From Pseudomonadota bacterium (lineage in GTDB: Bacteria > Pseudomonadota > Gammaproteobacteria > Burkholderiales > Sulfuriferulaceae), in assembly GCA_021845925.1 (NCBI GenBank), contig JAJZUW010000005.1, positions 128,232 to 192,231 on the forward strand: a stretch of DNA of 64,000 nucleotides, read 5' to 3'. Below the pieces are notes generated by a model that saw nothing but the letters and a program-made list of their open reading frames with translations, did no database searches and was not told the origin of the DNA. Below are positions 5,447 through 64,000 of this stretch, one piece after another (position 1 is the stretch's first letter; every line of letters begins with the position of its first letter). A program made the translations under genes and the position numbers.

Positions 5447-5860
5447 ATGAATCATCCAGAATTGCAACAGGCTTTCGAAACGGTCGACGAGCAGATTCGT
5501 CGTTACGAAATTGCCGTCAACGCGGGCGAGCAGCCCGAACTGGGCGCCATGGTCAGTCAGGCCATGCAGATGGTCAAGCAGCTCATGGTGGCTTATGTCC
5601 GCGATGTTGGCGAAGCCGAACCACCCGGACCGGAAGACGATCTCCTGGAATCCTTCAAAATCCTGGTCAAGGGCGATCCGTCCTGGAATACCATCCGCGA
5701 CAACTGTCGCGAACTGGTGTATTACCAGAACTGCCTGTCCATGGATCGTGCAGATGCCCTGCCGGTTCAGCCGCACAAAATGGCTGTCCGCACGTTGCGA
5801 CACATTTTCCTGTTCATGAAAACCCGCTGCATGCGTGAATCCCGCCTGGAGATGGTATGA
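5447..5860 (+). CDS. Small helical protein coupled to cbbQ
   Basis: A 137-residue, probably all-helical soluble protein starting [20 protein letters not shown]. No known motif is evident. The end, [20 protein letters not shown], overlaps the start of the CbbQ-like gene by 4 bases (ATGA), a strong sign of translational coupling. This makes it the first gene of a three-gene unit with the CbbQ-like ATPase and CbbO-like VWA protein. It may be an adaptor or a target-recognition factor for that ATPase; this is inference from position only. Confidence 0.7.
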
Positions 5861-6705
5861 AAGCCCTGTTCAACCGCCTGCGCGGCGTCGAGCGCGATAT
5901 CATCCAGGCTCCGGTGGAAGACGAAGCGGCAGCCCCGTTCTATGAGCCCCAAGGCAACGAAATTGCCATTTTTGAGGCAGCCTGGCGCAAGCGCTTGCCG
6001 GTGATGCTCAAGGGGCCAACCGGTTGTGGCAAAACCCGCTTTCTGGAATACATGGCCTGGCGACTCAAACGGCCCCTGGTCACGGTTTCCTGTCACGAGG
6101 ACCTGACCAGTTCCGATCTGGTTGGACGTTTCCTGCTGGAAGGCGACCAGACAGTCTGGCAGGATGGTCCGCTGACCAAGGCAGTCAAGGCTGGCGCGAT
6201 CTGCTATCTGGACGAAATTGTCGAAGCGCGTACCGACAGCACCGTGATCATCCATCCGTTGACCGATCACCGTCGCCAGCTTCCGCTGGAGAAAAAGGGC
6301 CAGGAAATCGAAGCGCATGAGGATTTCATGCTGGTGATTTCCTACAACCCTGGTTATCAGACCGTGCTGAAAGATCTCAAGCCTTCCACCAAGCAGCGGT
6401 TTGTCGGCATCCATTTCAACTATCCGAAACCGGAAGTGGAAGAACGCATCATTGCAGCCGAGGCCGGCGGTCTTACACCGGACCAGGTGGCCCGACTGGT
6501 GGCTGTTGGTCAGCGTGCCAGGGTGCTGAAGGACCATGGGCTGGAAGAAGCGACGTCAACCCGTGCGCTGGTGTATGCCGCCAATCTGATTGCGGCCGGT
6601 CTGCCACCGGTTGATGCGTGTCAGGCTGCCCTGGTGAGTCCGGTCACCGATGACCCGGAACTGGCGGAAGCACTGACTGAAATCGTACGGGCGCATTTTG
6701 GCTGA
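5857..6705 (+). CDS. cbbQ: CbbQ-type MoxR AAA+ ATPase
   Basis: A 282-residue MoxR-class AAA+ ATPase of the CbbQ/NirQ/NorQ group. Walker A is GPTGCGKT at residues 53-60, followed by the family-typical [20 protein letters not shown]. Walker B is [12 protein letters not shown] near residues 110-120. The blocks [17 protein letters not shown] and [20 protein letters not shown] are diagnostic. With CbbO such proteins remodel RuBisCO or other metalloenzymes, removing inhibitors or helping insert metal. It overlaps its upstream partner by 4 bases and the CbbO-like gene by 8. The sequence looks nearer to CbbQ than to NorQ, but no RuBisCO is nearby, so its client is unknown. Confidence 0.88.
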
Positions 6706-9229
6706 TCTGCAGGTACTGGCCGATATCCAGCAGATTCTGGCTGATCTGGAGGCGATCAGTTTTGTGGCTCACCGTGATGCCAGTGCGGCATTGCCGGCCA
6801 TACAGCAGTCGGGTGATGTGGTGGCGCTCGAATGGTTGCGGGCCTGCAAGTCGCTGTTCGAGCACGACCGGGATGCCGGCAAGGCGTTCATACGCGGCAG
6901 CCAGGCCGCCGTGGCTGCCTGCGCGGATGCTACGGTCTGGACCCGTCAGGCGCTGCGGTTCAGCGCCTGGCGAGGCTCCTGGAAAGCGCTGAACGGGTTT
7001 ATGGACCAGCTGCCGATCGCTTTCGGATTGCTGGGTCAGACCGGTGAAGAGCGTTGGGCAGCGCTTGGTCTGGACTGGTGCGAACGGCATCTGGATTCCG
7101 GTATCGCCTGGTTCAACTGTCCGGTTGAAGGCTTTGCGGGCGGGCATGGCATTGCCGGTATCGAGGATGTGGCCCTGCCTAGCGTGGATCTGTTTGAAAA
7201 ACGGCGGCTGGCGCTGGGCACTTATTTGTGTGGTGCGATTCGTGTCCGTGATCTGCTGGGGGTTGCTGCCGTTTTGCCTTGGGCAAAACGGGGTGCGGAT
7301 ATTCTGCAGGCTGGCCGCCTGCGCGGTGAAGCCTATTTTCGGCTTGAATCGGAAGAAAGCATGGCGTTGTTGCTGGAAAACCTGCCTGGTTTCCGGCTTG
7401 CCGAACACCATCGCCTGTTCCAGCTGATTTTGCGTGCATGGTTTGGTATTGGCGTTGACCTGTACGATAGCGACTGGTCGCCTGACAAAGGGCGTCCCTT
7501 TGTTGAAACCGATGGTGGCGGACTTTACCTGCCGCTGGCCATGCCGGATCGTGAAACCGCCATGCTGTCCGTCCTGCATGCCTGTGGTCATCTGGCATTC
7601 CACTCCTGGGAACGACGTTATATCGAAGAACTGTTCCGGGTTGCCGGCATGAAACATCCGCCACTGGACGCAGAGCAGCGCATCACCTGGCGGCCGCTTT
7701 TTGCTGCCTATGGCGATGACATGATCCGTTTTCAGCTGATTTTCGATCTGTGCGAAGATTTGCGTGTGGATGCTGCCATCGCACGCAAGGTTCCGGGTTA
7801 TCTGGACCGCTTGCTGGCTGCCGCTGATGCGGTTCCGCTGCCGGAAGGTCCGGCGGCAGATTACTTCATTCTGGCCCGGGATCTGTTGCGCTGGCAACGG
7901 GATGGCGCCCCTGTTCCGGCTGACCAGGTGCAGTGGTTGCCGTTGCTGACGGATGAGGCGACACTGGTGACCGCTTTTGAAACGGCACGAGTGCTCTACG
8001 CAAACACACGTTTGCCTGCAATCAGGCTGGCGGACCGGCCACACGCATATCTGCCGGGGCGCGCTCCGAACGCAGCACGTCCGGTTTATCCCAGACGGGA
8101 TCTGGATGTGCCGGAATCCGGAGAGCATGATGCCGAAGTGACCGACAAGCCAGGTGAAGAGCAGGCGCCCAAAGAGCAGCAGGATGTTTCGCATATTCCC
8201 AAAAATGCTGCTGGTGAAGACCCTGACATGGAAATTCCGCCGGAAAACACAGCGGGTTCCGGTGGCCGGGTCGGGGTTGGCATTCCACAGCCAGCCAATG
8301 TGCAAGGACGTGGACAGGGGCCTGAATACAGCGAAAAAGGCAAGCCATATCAGGAATGGGATTATCGCGACAACCGGTACAAGCGTCAGTGGGCGTGGGT
8401 GCAGGAAAAGGAACTGCACGAAAATGATGCGGCAGCCGCCGAACGTTTGCTGGAGCAGAATGCAACCGCGCTCAAACGGCTGAAACTGGCAATCCAGGCA
8501 CAAAAACCGCAACGCATGGCACCCATGCGGCGGCAGTATGAAGGCGAAGAGCTGGACTGGGATGCCGCAATCGGATTTGTCGTCGAAAAGCGGCGCGGCA
8601 CGTCGCCGGCTGCAGCCATTTACCGGCAACGGCGAGTGCAGACGCGCGATACAGCTGTGACCCTGCTGGCGGATCTGTCCACTTCCATCATGCAGCCTTG
8701 TCAGGAAGGCGGCAGGGTGGTCGACCGGATCCGGGCTGCCATGCTGCTGTTTGCCGAAAGCCTGGAGGCGGTGGGCGATCCGTACAGTCTGGCCGGTTTT
8801 GCATCGAAGTATCGCGACAATGTCAGCTATTACACCATCAAGGGATTTGATGAGCGTTTTGATGCCCGGGCGCGCGCTCAGGTCGGCGGTCTGTCCGGCC
8901 GGCTGGCGACCCGGATGGGTGCAGCCATCCGTCATGCGGTGCACCGGTTCGGGGATGCGCCATCCGTACGTCGTCTGCTGCTGATTCTGTCAGATGGACG
9001 GCCTGCGGATTATGATGATGGCGGTGACCAGCGTTATCTGCAGGAAGATACCCGCATGGCAGTCAAGGAAGCCATCGACGCAGGTATCCATCCCTTCTGC
9101 ATCACGCTGGATGCCAGTGGCAGCCAGTATTTGCCGATGATTTTTGGCAATGGGCATTATCTGGTGCTCGATCACATCAACGATCTGCCGCGAAAATTGC
9201 CAGAAGTCTATTTGCGCCTGCGCAAATAG
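6698..9229 (+). CDS. cbbO: CbbO/NorD-type VWA-domain protein
   Basis: An 843-residue partner of the CbbQ-like ATPase, starting at a TTG inside the end of cbbQ (8-base overlap). The C-terminal VWA domain (about residues 650-843) has a MIDAS motif DLSTS near 657, then [18 protein letters not shown] and [15 protein letters not shown]. The long N-terminal region is mostly helical; a low-complexity, Pro/Glu/Lys-rich linker runs at about residues 460-560. CbbO proteins are usually around 770-800 residues, so this fits. In the known complex the VWA domain is thought to bind the client through its metal site. A second such pair (norQ/norD) sits at the right end of the window. Confidence 0.87.
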
Positions 9230-42683: not shown

Positions 42684-43112
42684 TCAGGCTTTCAGCTGCA
42701 GAATGACCTGGGTGGTGTTGCCGGCAATGGCATCGGCCAGCGTGTATCGGTTGAGTTCGGCATAAAAGGTACTGGAAGCCCTGTTCAGCAGGGCTTTGAG
42801 CGTACAGCTCCCTTGCAGGACGCAGGGCGGTACGCCGCATTCAATGAGGTTATCCGTCCGTTCCAGCGTGCGCACGACATCGCCCAGCCGGTAGGTTTCG
42901 GGAAGGCGGGCAAGCCGGATACCCCCACCTTTGCCGCGAATGGTTTCCAGCCAGCCCTGCTGACCCATGAACTGGACGACTTTGGTCATGTGATTCAGCG
43001 CGACATCAAATTTGGCGGTGATTTCGCCGATGGTTTTTGTTTCGTCCGGCTGCGTGGCACTGAGAAACATCAGCACACGCAGGCCGAGATCGGTAAAACG
43101 GGTCAGTTGCAT
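42684..43112 (-). CDS. nsrR: NsrR-type Rrf2 family nitric-oxide-sensing repressor
   Basis: A 142-residue Rrf2 regulator. The three cluster cysteines lie at residues 92, 97 and 103 ([13 protein letters not shown]), and Asp8 (FTDLG) is also present; both match iron-sulfur-binding NsrR. The N-terminal winged helix is normal ([18 protein letters not shown]). NsrR loses DNA binding when nitric oxide attacks its cluster. It sits 59 bases downstream of hmp on the same strand, and an NsrR-like operator lies before hmp. Confidence 0.92.
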
Positions 43113-43171: not shown

Positions 43172-44386
43172 TCAGGCCGTCACGCCTCCCGAACCGAATG
43201 CCTCTGCGTGAATCCGGCTGTCTGCAATGCCGTGTTTGCGCAGGGCGTTGATTTGTGCCGTCATGAATGCTGACGGGCCACAAACGTAATAATCAGCATT
43301 CTTCGGCAAGAAGTGGCTTCCGGTCAAGCCTGACAGTTCAAGACGGCCGACTGCATGCGGGCGTGATGGAATGCGGTCATGTACCGCCTCATGAACAATC
43401 CATGCCTGTCCATCGGCGATCTGATCCATCAGATGGTCCACCCGGTCGCCAAATGCCTGCACCCCGGCATCGCGGCTGGCGTGCAGAAAACGCACCGGTC
43501 GGTCGGGATTCGTGCTGGCCAGATGTTCCAGCATGGACATCATGGGCGTGATGCCGACGCCACCGCTGATCAGCACCACCGGTTCCTGGCTGTTTTCGTT
43601 GAGATAGAAATCACCCGCAGGTGGGGCGATTTCGAGCAGGTCGCCTTCGTTGACACGGTCATGCAGATGATTGGATACCATGCCCGCCGGTTGTTCGGTA
43701 CGGGCAGATTCCCGTTTGACCGATATGCGGAAATGACCTTTGCCGGGTGCATCCGACAGGCTGTATTGACGCGGTTGCCGATAACCCAGTTCAGGGACGA
43801 TCACACGTACCGAAATGTACTGCCCTGGTTTGTACAATGGCACTGGACCGCCATCGGCGGGAACCATCTGAAACGAGGTGATTTCTTCGCTTTCGCGTAT
43901 TTTGCGCTCGACGCGAAACGTGCGCCATCCTGTCCATCCGCCTGTGCTGTCGATGGCCAGGTCATACATTTTTTGTTCCATGTCTGCCAGCAATGCTGCC
44001 AGATCACCGTAGGCGACTGCCCACGCGTCAACCAGTTCATCGCTGGCGGCGCTGCCCAGAACTTCGCGGATGGATGCCAGCAAGTGTTTGCCGACAATGG
44101 CATAGTGTTCCTTGCGGATGCCCAGACTGACGTGCTTGGCGGCAATGCGTTCCAGTACCGGCATCAGGACTGATGGGTCGTCGATATGATCGGCATAGGC
44201 GGTTACCGCCATGGCAAGGGCCTGCTGTTGTCCGCCATTGCGCTGGTGAGCCTGGTTGAAGTATTCGCGCAGTTCCGGGTTGTGCGTAAACATGCGGGCA
44301 TAGAAATGGCTGGTCAGTGTGACGCCATGTTCTTTCAGGACGGGAGCAGTGGCTTTGACAAGTTGGCGCTGGTTTTCAGAGAGCAT
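43172..44386 (-). CDS. hmp: Flavohemoglobin (nitric oxide dioxygenase)
   Basis: A 404-residue fusion of a globin (about 1-140) to a ferredoxin-NADP reductase-like module. The heme proximal ligand is His85 in AAKHVSLGIRKEHYAIVGKH; Tyr29 and Gln53 complete the distal pocket. The FAD motif is RQYSLSDAP and the NAD site GGVGITPMMSMLEHLA. It oxidises nitric oxide to nitrate using NAD(P)H and O2. An operator for NsrR overlaps its probable -10 element, and nsrR follows it. Confidence 0.96.
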   Translation of the reverse strand: MLSENQRQLVKATAPVLKEHGVTLTSHFYARMFTHNPELREYFNQAHQRNGGQQQALAMAVTAYADHIDDPSVLMPVLERIAAKHVSLGIRKEHYAIVGKHLLASIREVLGSAASDELVDAWAVAYGDLAALLADMEQKMYDLAIDSTGGWTGWRTFRVERKIRESEEITSFQMVPADGGPVPLYKPGQYISVRVIVPELGYRQPRQYSLSDAPGKGHFRISVKRESARTEQPAGMVSNHLHDRVNEGDLLEIAPPAGDFYLNENSQEPVVLISGGVGITPMMSMLEHLASTNPDRPVRFLHASRDAGVQAFGDRVDHLMDQIADGQAWIVHEAVHDRIPSRPHAVGRLELSGLTGSHFLPKNADYYVCGPSAFMTAQINALRKHGIADSRIHAEAFGSGGVTA

Positions 44387-44404: not shown

Positions 44405-44427
44405 AAGATGCATTTTGCATGCATATT
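44405..44427. promoter_or_regulatory. NsrR operator overlapping the hmp promoter
   Basis: The 23-base site AAGATGCATTTTGCATGCATATT is an inverted repeat (AAGATGCAT / ATGCATATT, one mismatch) and matches the published NsrR consensus of two AAGATGCAT-like half sites. A TATAAT on the minus strand (44430-44425) overlaps it, about 40 bases before the hmp start, so a bound NsrR would block the polymerase. NsrR itself is encoded just downstream of hmp. Confidence 0.8.
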
Positions 44428-59706: not shown

Positions 59707-59755
59707 TTGCCAAGGCCAAAACATGCATAATTTATGCATGTTTTGGCCTTGGCAA
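59707..59755. repeat. 49-bp perfect palindrome
   Basis: Two 24-base arms (left 59707-59730, right 59732-59755) around a single T make an exact inverted repeat with no mismatch. The centre is ATGCAT-AATTT-ATGCAT. It lies 58 bases after the stop of the DWSF gene and about 155 bases before the kinase start, both on the minus strand. It could act as a hairpin terminator for the first, an operator, or a cruciform. No T tract follows on either strand. Confidence 0.8.
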
Positions 59756-59813: not shown

Positions 59814-60158
59814 TTAGCGCTTGATGTAGGCAGGGCAGGTTGGATCGTCAAAACTCCAGTCGGCACAGGCGGGGCCGGACTGGCTGGTGCGAGTAATCCG
59901 GTTGGCAGAGGCCAACCGGCTGGACGGAGAAATGTAAGCCGCACAGTGCGGATCATTGAAGCTCCAGTCGGAGCACTGAGCCGCTTGCGGAGCGCCGGGC
60001 GCAGCGCCGGATGCGGCCTGGTGTGGAGCGATATAGGCAGGGCAGTGCGGACTGTTGAAACTCCAGTCCGAACAGGACAAGTCTTTGCCAAAGCTGGTTT
60101 GGGAGGCAAGCAGGCCAAAGCCGATGAGTGCCATGATTTTTGCGAGATGAGGTTTCAT
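59814..60158 (-). CDS. Small secreted protein with three DWSF repeats
   Basis: A 114-residue protein that I do not recognise. The ATG at 60158 has an AAAGGA ribosome-binding site nearby and gives a signal peptide (KIMALIGFGLLASQTSFG) up to about residue 24. The mature part holds three copies of a motif C-x-DWSF-x2-P-x-C-x-AYI, at residues 29-43, 62-76 and 98-112, joined by Ala/Gln/Ser/Pro linkers. The paired Cys could form a disulfide or bind metal. A sigma-54-type promoter lies before it, and the divergent gene is a sigma-54-dependent activator. A role tied to the norQD genes is possible. Confidence 0.75.
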   Translation of the reverse strand: MKPHLAKIMALIGFGLLASQTSFGKDLSCSDWSFNSPHCPAYIAPHQAASGAAPGAPQAAQCSDWSFNDPHCAAYISPSSRLASANRITRTSQSGPACADWSFDDPTCPAYIKR

Positions 60159-60223: not shown

Positions 60224-60239
60224 AGCCAGGATCGTGCCA
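60224..60239 (-). promoter_or_regulatory. Candidate sigma-54 promoter of the DWSF gene
   Basis: Read on the minus strand the site is TGGCACG-ATCC-TGGCT, against the consensus TGGCACG-N4-TTGCW: a perfect -24 part, and a -12 part with the essential GC kept and one mismatch. It gives a start near 60213 and a 5' leader of about 55 bases before 60158. A sigma-54-dependent activator is encoded divergently next to it. Confidence 0.75.
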
Positions 60240-60293: not shown

Positions 60294-60341
60294 CGTTCAA
60301 TGTGTTCACAATGAACGTTTGTTGACGATGTGCAATGAACG
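60294..60341. promoter_or_regulatory. Candidate activator binding sites (upstream dyads)
   Basis: An imperfect 24-bp dyad (60294-60317, CGTTCAATGTG / CACAATGAACG, one arm mismatch) plus a second copy of CAATGAACG at 60333-60341. The dyad centre is about 92 bases upstream of the predicted sigma-54 start, the normal place for enhancer sites of NtrC-type activators. The second copy lies just before the ribosome-binding site of the activator gene, so autoregulation is likely. Confidence 0.6.
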
Positions 60342-60351
60342 GAGGCGCTGC

Positions 60352-61755
60352 ATGATGATCAGCGATGTGATGCTGGACCGGTTTGTCGATAGTCTCGAAG
60401 AAGGCGTTCTTTTTCTGGACCGTAAACGATTCGTAGTGATGGCAAACCAGGCGGCAGCGCAGATGGTCGGCTGGGACAGGGCGGCCATGATCGGCCAGCT
60501 TTGTCAGCATCTGTTTCGCGAAACGGCCTGCGGACGGGCTTGCGAACGCCGCGGTCACTGCGTTCTGGCGCCGTTTCCCGGTGACGATAGCCACGTGAGG
60601 GACCTGTTGCTGGTGCGTCCGGACGGCAGTTCGGTCAATCTGCGCATGTGGGCCATGCTGCTACCTTCCGCTGGAGGGAATCATTTCCACAGCGCTATCA
60701 TTCTGCGTGATCGATCGCATGAAGTCGAACTGGAAGAATATGCCGCCGAGCGTCTGCAGTTTGGTGGAATCGTCGGTCACAGTCCGGTCATGCAGAAACT
60801 GTATAACCAGATCGTACGGGCGGCCAAAAGCGATGCAAGTGTTCTAATCACCGGTGAAAGCGGAACAGGCAAGGAAATGGTGGCCAGAGCGTTGCACGAG
60901 CACTCGAACCGTAGCAAGGGGCCCTATGTTCCGGTGCATTGCGCCGCTCTGCCGGAACATTTGCTCGAATCTGAGTTGTTCGGTTATGCTAAGGGTGCCT
61001 TTTCCGGCGCCCTGTCCGCGCGCATCGGCCGGTTTGAAGCCGCTGACGGCGGCACCATGCTGCTCGACGAAATCGGCGAGATTCCACTGGCCACTCAGGT
61101 CAAGCTCCTACGTGTACTGCAGGAAAGGGAAATTGTCCGGTTGGGTGAAAACCATCCTCGCCCAGTCGATGTGCGGGTGATCGCCGCCACGCACCGCAAT
61201 CTGGTCGAAATGGTGCGGCGTGGCGAATTCCGCGAAGACCTGTATTACCGGTTGTGCGTGTTGCCGATGCAGGTTCCGGCTCTGCGCGAACGGAAAGAGG
61301 ACATTTCGTTGATCGCCACCCGTTTACTGAACAATCTAGCCGACAAGTACGGTCGCAGCCAGATGGAGATCGCACGTGAAACGCTGGCGATACTTGAGCG
61401 GCACAACTGGCCAGGTAATGTCAGGCAACTGTTCAATGCACTGGAATATGCTCTGGTGAATTCGGATGGTCGGGAAATTCTGCTCGGGCACCTGCCGCCG
61501 GACATCCAACAGGCTGCCCAGTCAATCGGAGCTGGTGCAGGCGTCTTGTCTTCGCCGATGCGGTCGTATTACCGGCCGGCCGGCCCGGCGCAGCACGAAA
61601 TGGCGCGAATTGAACAGGTGCTGGCTGAGACGGCTGGCAACAAGGCCGAAGCGGCGCGCAGACTGGGCATGTCGCGCACCAGTCTGTGGAAGCGGCTGAA
61701 AGGCTGGCGTGCCGCCGAGTGCCGCGACGTGGACGGCACGCGATCAGTACTGTGA
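60352..61755 (+). CDS. Sigma-54-dependent PAS-AAA+-Fis regulator
   Basis: A 467-residue NtrC-type activator. The ATG at 60352 follows GGAGG at 60341-60345. A PAS domain (about 1-115) contains four Cys (C51, C60, C64, C70, in ETACGRACERRGHC). The AAA+ core has GESGTGKEM (Walker A) near residue 168 and a GAFSGA loop near 215 (the family norm is GAFTGA). The C-terminal Fis HTH ends RRLGMSRTSLWKRLKG. No receiver or GAF domain, so it is not NorR. Its target is probably the divergent DWSF gene and perhaps nor genes. It overlaps the norD stop by 12 bases in convergent orientation. Confidence 0.87.
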   Translation: MMISDVMLDRFVDSLEEGVLFLDRKRFVVMANQAAAQMVGWDRAAMIGQLCQHLFRETACGRACERRGHCVLAPFPGDDSHVRDLLLVRPDGSSVNLRMWAMLLPSAGGNHFHSAIILRDRSHEVELEEYAAERLQFGGIVGHSPVMQKLYNQIVRAAKSDASVLITGESGTGKEMVARALHEHSNRSKGPYVPVHCAALPEHLLESELFGYAKGAFSGALSARIGRFEAADGGTMLLDEIGEIPLATQVKLLRVLQEREIVRLGENHPRPVDVRVIAATHRNLVEMVRRGEFREDLYYRLCVLPMQVPALRERKEDISLIATRLLNNLADKYGRSQMEIARETLAILERHNWPGNVRQLFNALEYALVNSDGREILLGHLPPDIQQAAQSIGAGAGVLSSPMRSYYRPAGPAQHEMARIEQVLAETAGNKAEAARRLGMSRTSLWKRLKGWRAAECRDVDGTRSVL

Positions 61756-63561
61756 GCGGGTCAGCTGCCCATACAGGCGGGTCAGTCTTTGCGGTAGCTC
61801 GTGCGGGTGTTTCACGATGACAAAACCATGCTGTCCAAAGATGTGAGGTAGCCAGGATGCGCCTTCCTGGTCGATAGTGACGCAGAAAGGCAATAATCCC
61901 TGGCGCCGGCACTCGGTCAGCGCCATGCGCGTGTCTTCGATGCCATAACGGCCTTCGTAACGGTCATTGTCGTTCGGTTTGCCGTCGGTCAACAGAATCA
62001 GCAGTCGCTTACGAGCACGTTCATGGGCCAGAAGCTGGCTGGCGTAGCGAACGGCAGCCCCCATGCGTGTGTAATAGGCGGGCTGCATGCCGAGGATCCG
62101 CTGGCGGGTTGCGCTGCCGTAGCTTTCGTCGAAACGCTTGATTTCGCTGATGCGCACGCTTTGTCGCCCGCGCGAATTGAAGCCAATGATGGCCAGTCGG
62201 TCGCGCGTTGTCGCCAGTGATTCGGCAAACAGCAGCAGACTGTCGCGCAACACGTCCACGATGCGAGTGTGCAAGTCGAGCGAGGCTTCTGTCGAAAGGG
62301 AGAAGTCTGCTAGCAACAGGCACGACAGGTCGCGTTCCTTGCGACGCAGGTTCTGATACAGATTTTCATTTTGGCGCTGGTCGCCGGATCGGGCACGGAT
62401 GCAGGCATCCAGATCGATGCAGTTACCATCGGCCTGTCCGCGCTGGGTCTGGTGTTCCGGCAGCAAAGCGGCGAGGCGTGACCGCAGTGCCCGGTGTCCG
62501 GCGCGCAGTCGCTCTGGCAGCTCGCAGCCCTGGGTTGCCGGAGGGTGTGGTAGCTGTTGCACGGCACAGTGGTCTGGCAGCAGAATGTGGTTGCGGAAAT
62601 CCCATTCTGGCAGACGCAGCGCACCAGCGGGTAGTCCGGCGGTCTCTTCAGACGGATCGGTTTCCAGATCCATGCGCAGTTTGCGGCTGATGCGCAGGGA
62701 CGTGCGGTTGAGATGCAACATCTCCAGATCGTCGGCTGCGCGACTCAGGTCCTCATCTTGGTTTTCCTGCACTGGATGTTCGACATTGACATATTCAGTC
62801 CAGCTGAAAATCGACTCTGGCCGGGGCAGAAACAGGCCGCCGCTACGCGTGGTCTGCTCCGAGCGACGGGCCCGGCGACGCTTGTCGTCCTGTTGTTCGG
62901 CCGGTTGGCTGGACTCGTCCTGGGTTTCATCGCTGCGTTGAGAACTAGTGTTGGCGGGTAGGTCGACCTGCCGTGGCCAAAGTAGTATCGGTGGCGGCAG
63001 ACGGCCGGGCGGCAGGCAGCGGATGCTGCCTGGGTGTAATAAAGCCTGCCGCAACGCGCGTTCGATGAGCTGACTGCCGCGCGGAAGACGTTCCAGTGGG
63101 CCGCGACGTTCGAACTCTGCCTCGACCAGGTGTTGATAGATCGTGCCGATGGCCGGATAACGATCAAGCAGTGTACGTGTGCCATGCTGGCAGACGAGCA
63201 GTCCATCGGCCGGCAAGTTGTTCAGCTGGCTGGCCAGCATGGCCCACCAGCGATAGAGGTCCCGGTGCAGGGCCTTGCTGGCATAGACGTCGACATACTC
63301 CGGCAGGCAGAGCGCCCGTTCGTTCAGGGTGGCTAGCGGGATACGTTCGCCGAGACCGGCCAGTTTGCCGATGAAGCGGGATGGTCTGGTGCGTGCGAGC
63401 GAAACAGGACTGATCTTCAGGCCGTGAGGCCCGCCGAAAGCGCGGAACAAGAGGCCCGCTTCCCGCTGCATCTCGGACAGGGCGACCCGCGTCGGGCTGG
63501 GACCTTCTTCTGCCAGCCGGGTGACCAACCGGTGCCACCAGATGCCAACCTGTTCTTCCAC
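61744..63561 (-). CDS. norD: Nitric oxide reductase activation protein NorD
   Basis: A 605-residue VWA-domain protein that, with NorQ, is needed to mature nitric oxide reductase NorBC. The VWA domain (about 412-605) has the MIDAS core LLADFSLSTEASLDLH and LLILLTDGKPNDNDR. The middle part is charged with a low-complexity linker (QQDDKRRRARRSEQ). The GTG start at 63561 is 3 bases after the norQ stop. NorB and NorC would be expected beyond the right edge. Its stop overlaps the end of the sigma-54 regulator. Confidence 0.9.
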   Translation of the reverse strand: MEEQVGIWWHRLVTRLAEEGPSPTRVALSEMQREAGLLFRAFGGPHGLKISPVSLARTRPSRFIGKLAGLGERIPLATLNERALCLPEYVDVYASKALHRDLYRWWAMLASQLNNLPADGLLVCQHGTRTLLDRYPAIGTIYQHLVEAEFERRGPLERLPRGSQLIERALRQALLHPGSIRCLPPGRLPPPILLWPRQVDLPANTSSQRSDETQDESSQPAEQQDDKRRRARRSEQTTRSGGLFLPRPESIFSWTEYVNVEHPVQENQDEDLSRAADDLEMLHLNRTSLRISRKLRMDLETDPSEETAGLPAGALRLPEWDFRNHILLPDHCAVQQLPHPPATQGCELPERLRAGHRALRSRLAALLPEHQTQRGQADGNCIDLDACIRARSGDQRQNENLYQNLRRKERDLSCLLLADFSLSTEASLDLHTRIVDVLRDSLLLFAESLATTRDRLAIIGFNSRGRQSVRISEIKRFDESYGSATRQRILGMQPAYYTRMGAAVRYASQLLAHERARKRLLILLTDGKPNDNDRYEGRYGIEDTRMALTECRRQGLLPFCVTIDQEGASWLPHIFGQHGFVIVKHPHELPQRLTRLYGQLTRSQY

Positions 63562-63564
63562 CGG

Positions 63565-64000
63565 TCATTCTCCCATAATGGCACGGACGAGCTGCATCAG
63601 GGCCTGCACTGTTTCCGTGTCGTCGGTCAGACATTCCACGATGGCAACTCGGCAGGCATGGCGGGTCGGGCAGCCTTGTTGCATCAGGCGAGCGGCGTTG
63701 ACAAGCAAGCGGGTGCCCGGTGCTTCTTCCAGATCGTGCGCGGCCGTCTGGCGCAGAGCCTGGGCCAGACGGACCAGGTCGCGCGCGCGGTCGGCATTCA
63801 GCGCGGATTCGCTGACGACGATCTGCTCTTCGCGCGCCGGTTCCGGAAAGTTGAAGCTCAGTGAGATGAAACGTTGGCGCGTACTGGGCTTGAGCCCCTT
63901 TAGCAAGTGCTGGTATCCCGGGTTATACGAAATGACCAGCATGAATCCGGCGGGCGCTTGTAGCTGTTCGCCGGTGCGTTCGATGGTCAGTAGACGTCGG
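63565..64000 (-). CDS. norQ: NorQ-type MoxR AAA+ ATPase, C-terminal part (cut by window edge)
   Basis: The last 144 residues of a CbbQ/NirQ/NorQ ATPase, running off the right edge. Visible are [40 protein letters not shown] and a C-terminal helical part ending LMQLVRAIMGE. The Walker motifs lie outside the window. It is directly before norD, the usual partner order. The sequence differs clearly from the cbbQ copy near 6 kb, so this is a second, separate pair. Confidence 0.9.
   Translation of the reverse strand, partial: RRLLTIERTGEQLQAPAGFMLVISYNPGYQHLLKGLKPSTRQRFISLSFNFPEPAREEQIVVSESALNADRARDLVRLAQALRQTAAHDLEEAPGTRLLVNAARLMQQGCPTRHACRVAIVECLTDDTETVQALMQLVRAIMGE

Follow-up and report, generated by a model that had tools for sequence, protein, structure and literature searches.

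Introduction

In the NorR module, as set out in PMC1274295, norR lies next to the divergent norVW or norA/norB genes and palindromic sites are located upstream of the sigma-54 promoter; the same account gives GT-N7-AC as the core of the NorR operator, present in three tandem copies. Bufferins (Buf1/DUF2282 and Buf2), in the description offered by PMC12452194, are small Sec-exported Cys proteins, some of which carry duplicated Cys domains.

The locus presented here lies in a stretch of 64,000 nucleotides (the window) and has features in common with both systems. As in the NorR module, a sigma-54 activator sits beside NO-reductase genes and palindromic sites are found upstream of a sigma-54 promoter; however, the regulator has a four-Cys PAS sensor and fails the NorR cut-off, the dyad GTTCATTGTGAAC has the form GTTYA-N3-TGAAC, that is GT-N9-AC, in one or two copies, and the target is a putatively exported repeat protein. 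Like the bufferins, this protein is small, putatively Sec-exported, Cys-containing and built of repeated units, but it shows no DUF2282 similarity, its Cys pattern is different and its context is NO rather than copper. In addition, the neighbours scanned in the window and at loci L008 and L015 matched other families, with no MNIO (DUF692-type), DUF2063 or DoxX gene among them.

Results

A small protein with three copies of a Cys-flanked motif

The features of the gene and of its product are the following.

59814 to 60158, minus strand: gene of a 114-aa, putatively exported triple-repeat protein (P0001), from the reading frame and homologues
60087 to 60158, minus strand: putative Sec signal peptide, residues 1-24, from sequence and hydropathy, cleavage site placed by eye
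60030 to 60074, minus strand: repeat 1, CSDWSFNSPHCPAYI, from protein sequence, DNA repeat and copy comparison
59931 to 59975, minus strand: repeat 2, CSDWSFNDPHCAAYI, on the same grounds
59823 to 59867, minus strand: repeat 3, CADWSFDDPTCPAYI, on the same grounds

The open reading frame, 114 aa and a stop codon read from 60158 to 59814, coincides exactly with the one singled out by the original prediction. The protein starts with MKPHLAKIMALIGFGLLASQTSFGK-DLSC..., and the putative N-terminal signal peptide is followed by three copies of C-x-D-W-S-F-x2-P-x-C-x-A-Y-I at residues C29-I43, C62-I76 and C98-I112, all with the Cys spacing C-x9-C. At the DNA level, three 47-nt repeats are seen, with 66-79% identity to the reference copy. 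The back-translated motif, in which N or D was allowed as the fifth residue, matched the window exactly three times, always inside this gene, while the mean in 100 dinucleotide shuffles of the window was 0.00. Reading frame, DNA repeats and shuffles together bear out the triple repeat originally proposed. Synonymous and amino-acid-changing codon differences between the copies numbered 6/2, 3/3 and 6/3 for the three pairs, and the synonymous excess in two of them is as expected for a real coding repeat.

The N-terminus is hydrophobic (best 12-mer hydropathy 2.26, judged by hydropathy and eye only), which, together with the putative signal peptide, supports the claim of a small exported protein; we regard export as a well-supported prediction. 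Inspection of the whole sequence revealed no CxxCH heme motif.

The claim that the protein falls into no recognised family stood, since no match exceeded a curated cut-off in Pfam, NCBIfam, PHROGs or PDB sequences: no Pfam or NCBIfam family reached its cut-off, and the best matches in PHROGs and among PDB sequences had E-values of 0.013 and 0.047. The top Pfam match, PAN_4 (PF14295), weakly resembles a 13-residue segment of one repeat (E 0.0022), but it remains below the Pfam cut-off (18.4 bits versus 27) and covers only profile positions 30-42 of 51. This weak likeness recurs in four of seven family members at E<=0.1, and none of the seven matches DUF2282 (Buf1) in Pfam. Searches of plasmids and viral contigs, as well as a first genome-collection scan with the protein as query, gave nothing useful, and in the literature searched we found no description of the protein.

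The original prediction had proposed a structure prediction and a profile search with the motif, and both were run. The structure model obtained for the window protein is of poor quality (mean pLDDT 51.6), with values of 74 for the last two blocks and below 50 for the linkers; it would be compatible with short loops joined by disordered linkers, but is no proof of them.

Relatives were found in a few Betaproteobacteria only

The motif and profile searches, carried out over several genome sets, placed the real relatives in a few Betaproteobacteria only. In the genus of the window, 6 of 18 genomes gave matches, and the motif was present in the window's own genome and in G011 only (2/18); weak profile matches in G001, G002, G008 and G013, and a second match in the window's own genome, were rejected because the motif is absent. 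At the level of the order, profile A2 matched 6 of 399 genomes; the motif identifies G000, G078 (two genes), G619 and G051 as real, and it is absent from the rejected matches in G042 and G060. Three of the 22 genomes in the family of G078 gave a match. The window's own genome was alone in being real both among 369 sampled genomes of the class (profile A1) and among 398 of the phylum (profile A2; 1/398), and matches in G120, G525 and G575 were discarded for absence of the motif. The motif scan of genome_contigs, with one genome per species for 84,980 species, returned 13 loci. The repeat protein is encoded at five of these, in four genomes (Sulfuricella sp. STA_41, Sulfuricella sp. nzgw577 with two loci, Proteobacteria bacterium DBS1-3.bin12 and Betaproteobacteria bacterium REEB203); the other eight lack it and were rejected as chance. 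The coordinates of the STA_41 locus are identical to those of the match in G773.

All six full-length relatives (window, G011, G078A, REEB203, G078B and STA_41) have three copies. The loops of the A-type genes (window, G011, G078A, G619 and REEB203) are C-x9-C, and their residues are kept at 40-46% protein identity while the linkers vary in sequence; in the B-type (G078B and STA_41) the core is D-W-[GA]-F and the first half is longer. The DWSF core, described as invariant in the original prediction, is not so across the family, in which DLSF, DWNF, DWGF, DWAF and DWSY also occur.

Two shortened versions were found. The G051 copy is degenerate and has two repeats. G619, of the same genus as the nzgw577 genome, encodes a 46-aa one-copy version consisting of signal peptide and one full repeat, with the C-terminal ending of its relatives and with gene order and promoter likewise kept. 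It looks like an in-frame contraction and may be a decaying copy; its existence suggests that a single loop of about 15 residues is probably the working unit.

A putative sigma-54 promoter and a dyad precede the A-type genes

Upstream of the gene we located the following elements.

60224 to 60239, minus strand: putative sigma-54 -24/-12 promoter TGGCACGATCCTGGCT, first base 81 bp before the ATG, with equivalents in four relatives
60304 to 60316, minus strand: putative UAS dyad GTTCATTGTGAAC for the activator, starting 77 bp upstream of where the sigma-54 site starts
60352 to 61755, plus strand: divergent regulator with PAS, AAA+ sigma-54 activator and Fis-HTH domains, from domain matches and a Cys motif

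A sigma-54 site is present in all five A-type genes, with its first base 81-88 bp ahead of the start codon (80-88 bp with the start positions of a separate scan). When each 220-nt upstream region underwent 2000 mononucleotide shuffles, an equally good site appeared in 4-13 of them. The dyad GTTYAYTGTGAAC lies 76-78 bp upstream of this site in the window, G011, G619 and REEB203, with two mismatches in REEB203; the dyad is clean in the other four A-type genes, including G078A (GTTTACTGTGAAC). A second, inverted dyad is found further upstream in G011, G078A and G619, and the window has a half-site (by eye). Of 379 genomes searched in the order, 3 have the compound UAS-sigma-54 pattern, always ahead of a repeat-protein gene, while the reversed-pattern control gave 0 matches. 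Besides the exact sites, the window's own genome contains three UAS-like sites with one mismatch; a second exact one falls, by eye, inside a GMP-synthase-like coding sequence and was not counted. Near the start of the B-type genes (G078B and STA_41), a sigma-54/UAS site was looked for and is absent.

The PAS region of the divergent regulator carries C-x8-C-x3-C-x5-C, with all four Cys kept in three orthologues, and might hold an Fe-S cluster. Of 10 genomes probed, three (G000, G078 and G619) gave a match to this region, each time divergent from the repeat-protein gene, and these are exactly the three genomes with the compound pattern. G011 (77% complete) and REEB203 keep the promoter, but gave no match to the PAS region. 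By its curated cut-off the regulator is not NorR: it scored 338.3 bits versus a cut-off of 476, and the G078 orthologue, truncated where its locus ends, scored 317.5 bits. All together, regulation of the gene is well supported, the adjacent regulator being its presumed activator.

The gene lies in an NO/nitrite neighbourhood

On the other side of the regulator, the window ends within a nor cluster.

61744 to 63561, minus strand: NorD-like VWA protein, at the end of a norC-norB-norE-norF-norQ-norD cluster that continues outside the window (L028)
63565 to 64000, minus strand: C-terminal part of a NorQ-like AAA protein (CbbQ/NirQ/NorQ type by eye), whole gene at L028 6797-7600

Beyond the window, L028 contains norC, norB, norE-like, norF-like, norQ and norD in this order, where norE and norF are the names that we presume for COX3- and COX4_pro-type genes. 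norB, identified as cNOR subunit B (E 1.3e-182), is 5.2 kb from the window gene, and in G078 and G619 it lies within about 6 kb of the repeat-protein gene on the same contig. The REEB203 gene is divergent from NirS (E 4.3e-241). SufT-like, DUF2249, NorD-like and NsrR-like genes are neighbours in G078, and an Rrf2/NsrR-like gene and an unmatched membrane protein in G011.

No NorB match was found in G011 (77% complete) or REEB203. Conversely, norB occurs without the repeat-protein gene in G013 and G031, and G051 has norB and only the degenerate copy; thus, NO reductase does not need the protein. Taken with the missing regulator and NorB matches, this indicates that the gene is an optional accessory, and that the NO link is based on few related genomes. 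The B-type genes adjoin an HExxH protein and not nor genes; lacking also the sigma-54/UAS site, they indicate that the family is not solely NO-linked. We consider the link to NO fairly supported, with NO as the presumed signal.

The loci considered offer two further observations. The NO-related loci of G011 and G078 share a polytopic membrane protein with 73% identity (L015 5666-6805; L016 2101-3429); an NnrS label for it was dropped after no match was obtained in Pfam (to E = 1), in NCBIfam (partial protein) or in the PDB (L015 copy). The neighbour of the B-type genes is a putative HExxH peptidase with HELSH or HELAH (L025 6056-6889; L009 1634-2080); the L025 protein has no Pfam match and an NCBIfam score of 28.9 versus a cut-off of 205.

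Discussion

The amounts of NO and N2O that escape from denitrifiers are decided by how NO is handled in their periplasm, where, to our knowledge, nearly all known players are large metalloenzymes. The putatively exported repeat protein described here is unrecognised, and has a conserved sigma-54 switch in an NO-metabolism locus. Its modularity, homology, promoter architecture and neighbourhood are established at the level of sequence. The original prediction, in which the paired Cys could be a disulfide clamp or a metal- or heme-ligand site, is partly supported; it did not include the sigma-54 promoter and dyad, the divergent regulator and the NO-reductase neighbourhood.

We propose, with about as much confidence as doubt, that the protein is an exported accessory of NO/nitrite metabolism under a sigma-54 switch, and that its Cys-closed Trp loops would bind or buffer something in the periplasm. 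Specifically, it would be a small Sec-exported modular protein with a loop of about 15 residues, C-x-D-W-S-F-N-x-P-x-C-x-A-Y-I, as its unit, three such loops being joined by linkers that vary and are probably disordered. Within a nitric-oxide/nitrite response of denitrification-type metabolism, the gene would be switched on by the adjacent PAS sigma-54 activator, acting through the dyad that lies about 77 bp upstream of the sigma-54 promoter. Each Cys pair would, in the oxidising periplasm, most likely close its loop as a disulfide, presenting D-W-F-N-P as a binding surface; alternatively, the Cys pair might hold a metal or react with reactive nitrogen species. The protein may thus act as a periplasmic buffer or accessory near NO-producing and NO-consuming enzymes. 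Periplasmic binding or buffering by Cys-closed Trp loops is the most likely function that can be read from the sequence; for the loop chemistry, disulfide state and binding role included, we only infer.

An unlikely alternative is a peptide precursor, in which cuts in the linkers set free three almost identical peptides, each ringed by a disulfide and about 15-20 residues long, acting as an exported signal or chelator; the one-copy gene of G619 would then make the peptide directly, with a mature length of about 20 aa. This is in line with conserved repeats and variable linkers, with the one-copy version under the same promoter and with the predicted HExxH protein adjoining the B-type genes. 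However, that protein is without a Pfam match and scores below the cut-off in NCBIfam, the A-type loci show no such protease, the neighbours scanned (Pfam/NCBIfam) include no dedicated peptide exporter or modifying enzyme, and no conserved cleavage motif was noticed.

It is likewise unlikely that the protein is a bufferin-like metal buffer, with exported Cys pairs binding Cu(I) or Fe freed in nitrosative stress. Small size, a Sec-type signal peptide, repeated Cys and the periplasmic NO context would suit such a role, as would the SufT-like Fe-S protein gene adjacent in two genomes, and the bufferins, as portrayed in PMC12452194, are a precedent for small exported Cys proteins; the lack of a DUF2282 match and of the MNIO, DUF2063 and DoxX genes among the neighbours scanned argues against it.

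A quite unlikely extension of the peptide idea would see a multi-copy cyclic peptide system of denitrifying bacteria, in which three (or one) disulfide-ringed units, under a dedicated sigma-54 NO sensor (the four-Cys PAS, perhaps with Fe-S), might serve as an extracytoplasmic NO- or metal-binding peptide or as a cell-to-cell denitrification signal.

Proximity to nor genes in three genomes and to nirS in one could point to a role in assembling or maturing one of the denitrification enzymes of the periplasm (NorC, NorB or NirS), but this is very unlikely, as the norB homologues of G013 and G031 occur without the repeat protein, which is hence dispensable for NOR assembly, and the gene has its own, separate sigma-54 transcription. 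Finally, the repeat protein could be selfish or decaying, and currently without a function. This would account for the patchy distribution (2/18 genus genomes, 1/398 sampled phylum genomes) and the contracted G619 copy, but it is no less improbable than the assembly role, given that the promoter, the spacing of the dyad and the residues of the loop have been maintained across 40-46% protein identity, and synteny with the regulator in three genomes.

Returning to the proposed exported accessory, a small, separately regulated exported protein at this locus, with a regulator that resembles NorR but falls short of its cut-off, is a concrete and cheap target, and thanks to the natural one-copy variant the minimal unit can be tested directly in the form of a synthetic peptide.

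Other NO-related features of the window

59723 to 59739, no strand assigned: NsrR-type operator ATGCATAATTTATGCAT, in the interval that separates the repeat-protein gene from the hybrid histidine kinase downstream

With the NsrR operator consensus as it appears in PMC1274295, two NsrR-type operators were found in the window versus 0.06 expected. An identical sequence to ATGCATAATTTATGCAT stands ahead of norC (L028 10649-10665). The operators at hmp, at norC and between the repeat-protein gene and the kinase recall the NsrR regulon (hmp, nor), but the last is downstream of the repeat-protein gene, whose own promoter is of the sigma-54 type. A terminator reading of the inverted repeat 3' of the gene was dropped, because it contains this operator. 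The operator is surrounded by a long, near-perfect palindrome between the repeat-protein gene and genes for the hybrid histidine kinase and an EAL-domain response regulator, and NO control of c-di-GMP signalling is possible.

The second operator (44408-44424) is directly ahead of the flavohemoglobin (Hmp) gene (43172-44386; 519.3 versus a curated cut-off of 432), which is followed by an NsrR-like Rrf2 gene (42705-43112), and operator, hmp and the NsrR-like gene form a self-contained NO-detoxification unit. In addition, the window contains two separate CbbQ/NorQ and VWA (CbbO/NorD) pairs, at 5857-9229 and 61744-64000, one presumably for Rubisco activation and the other in the nor cluster.
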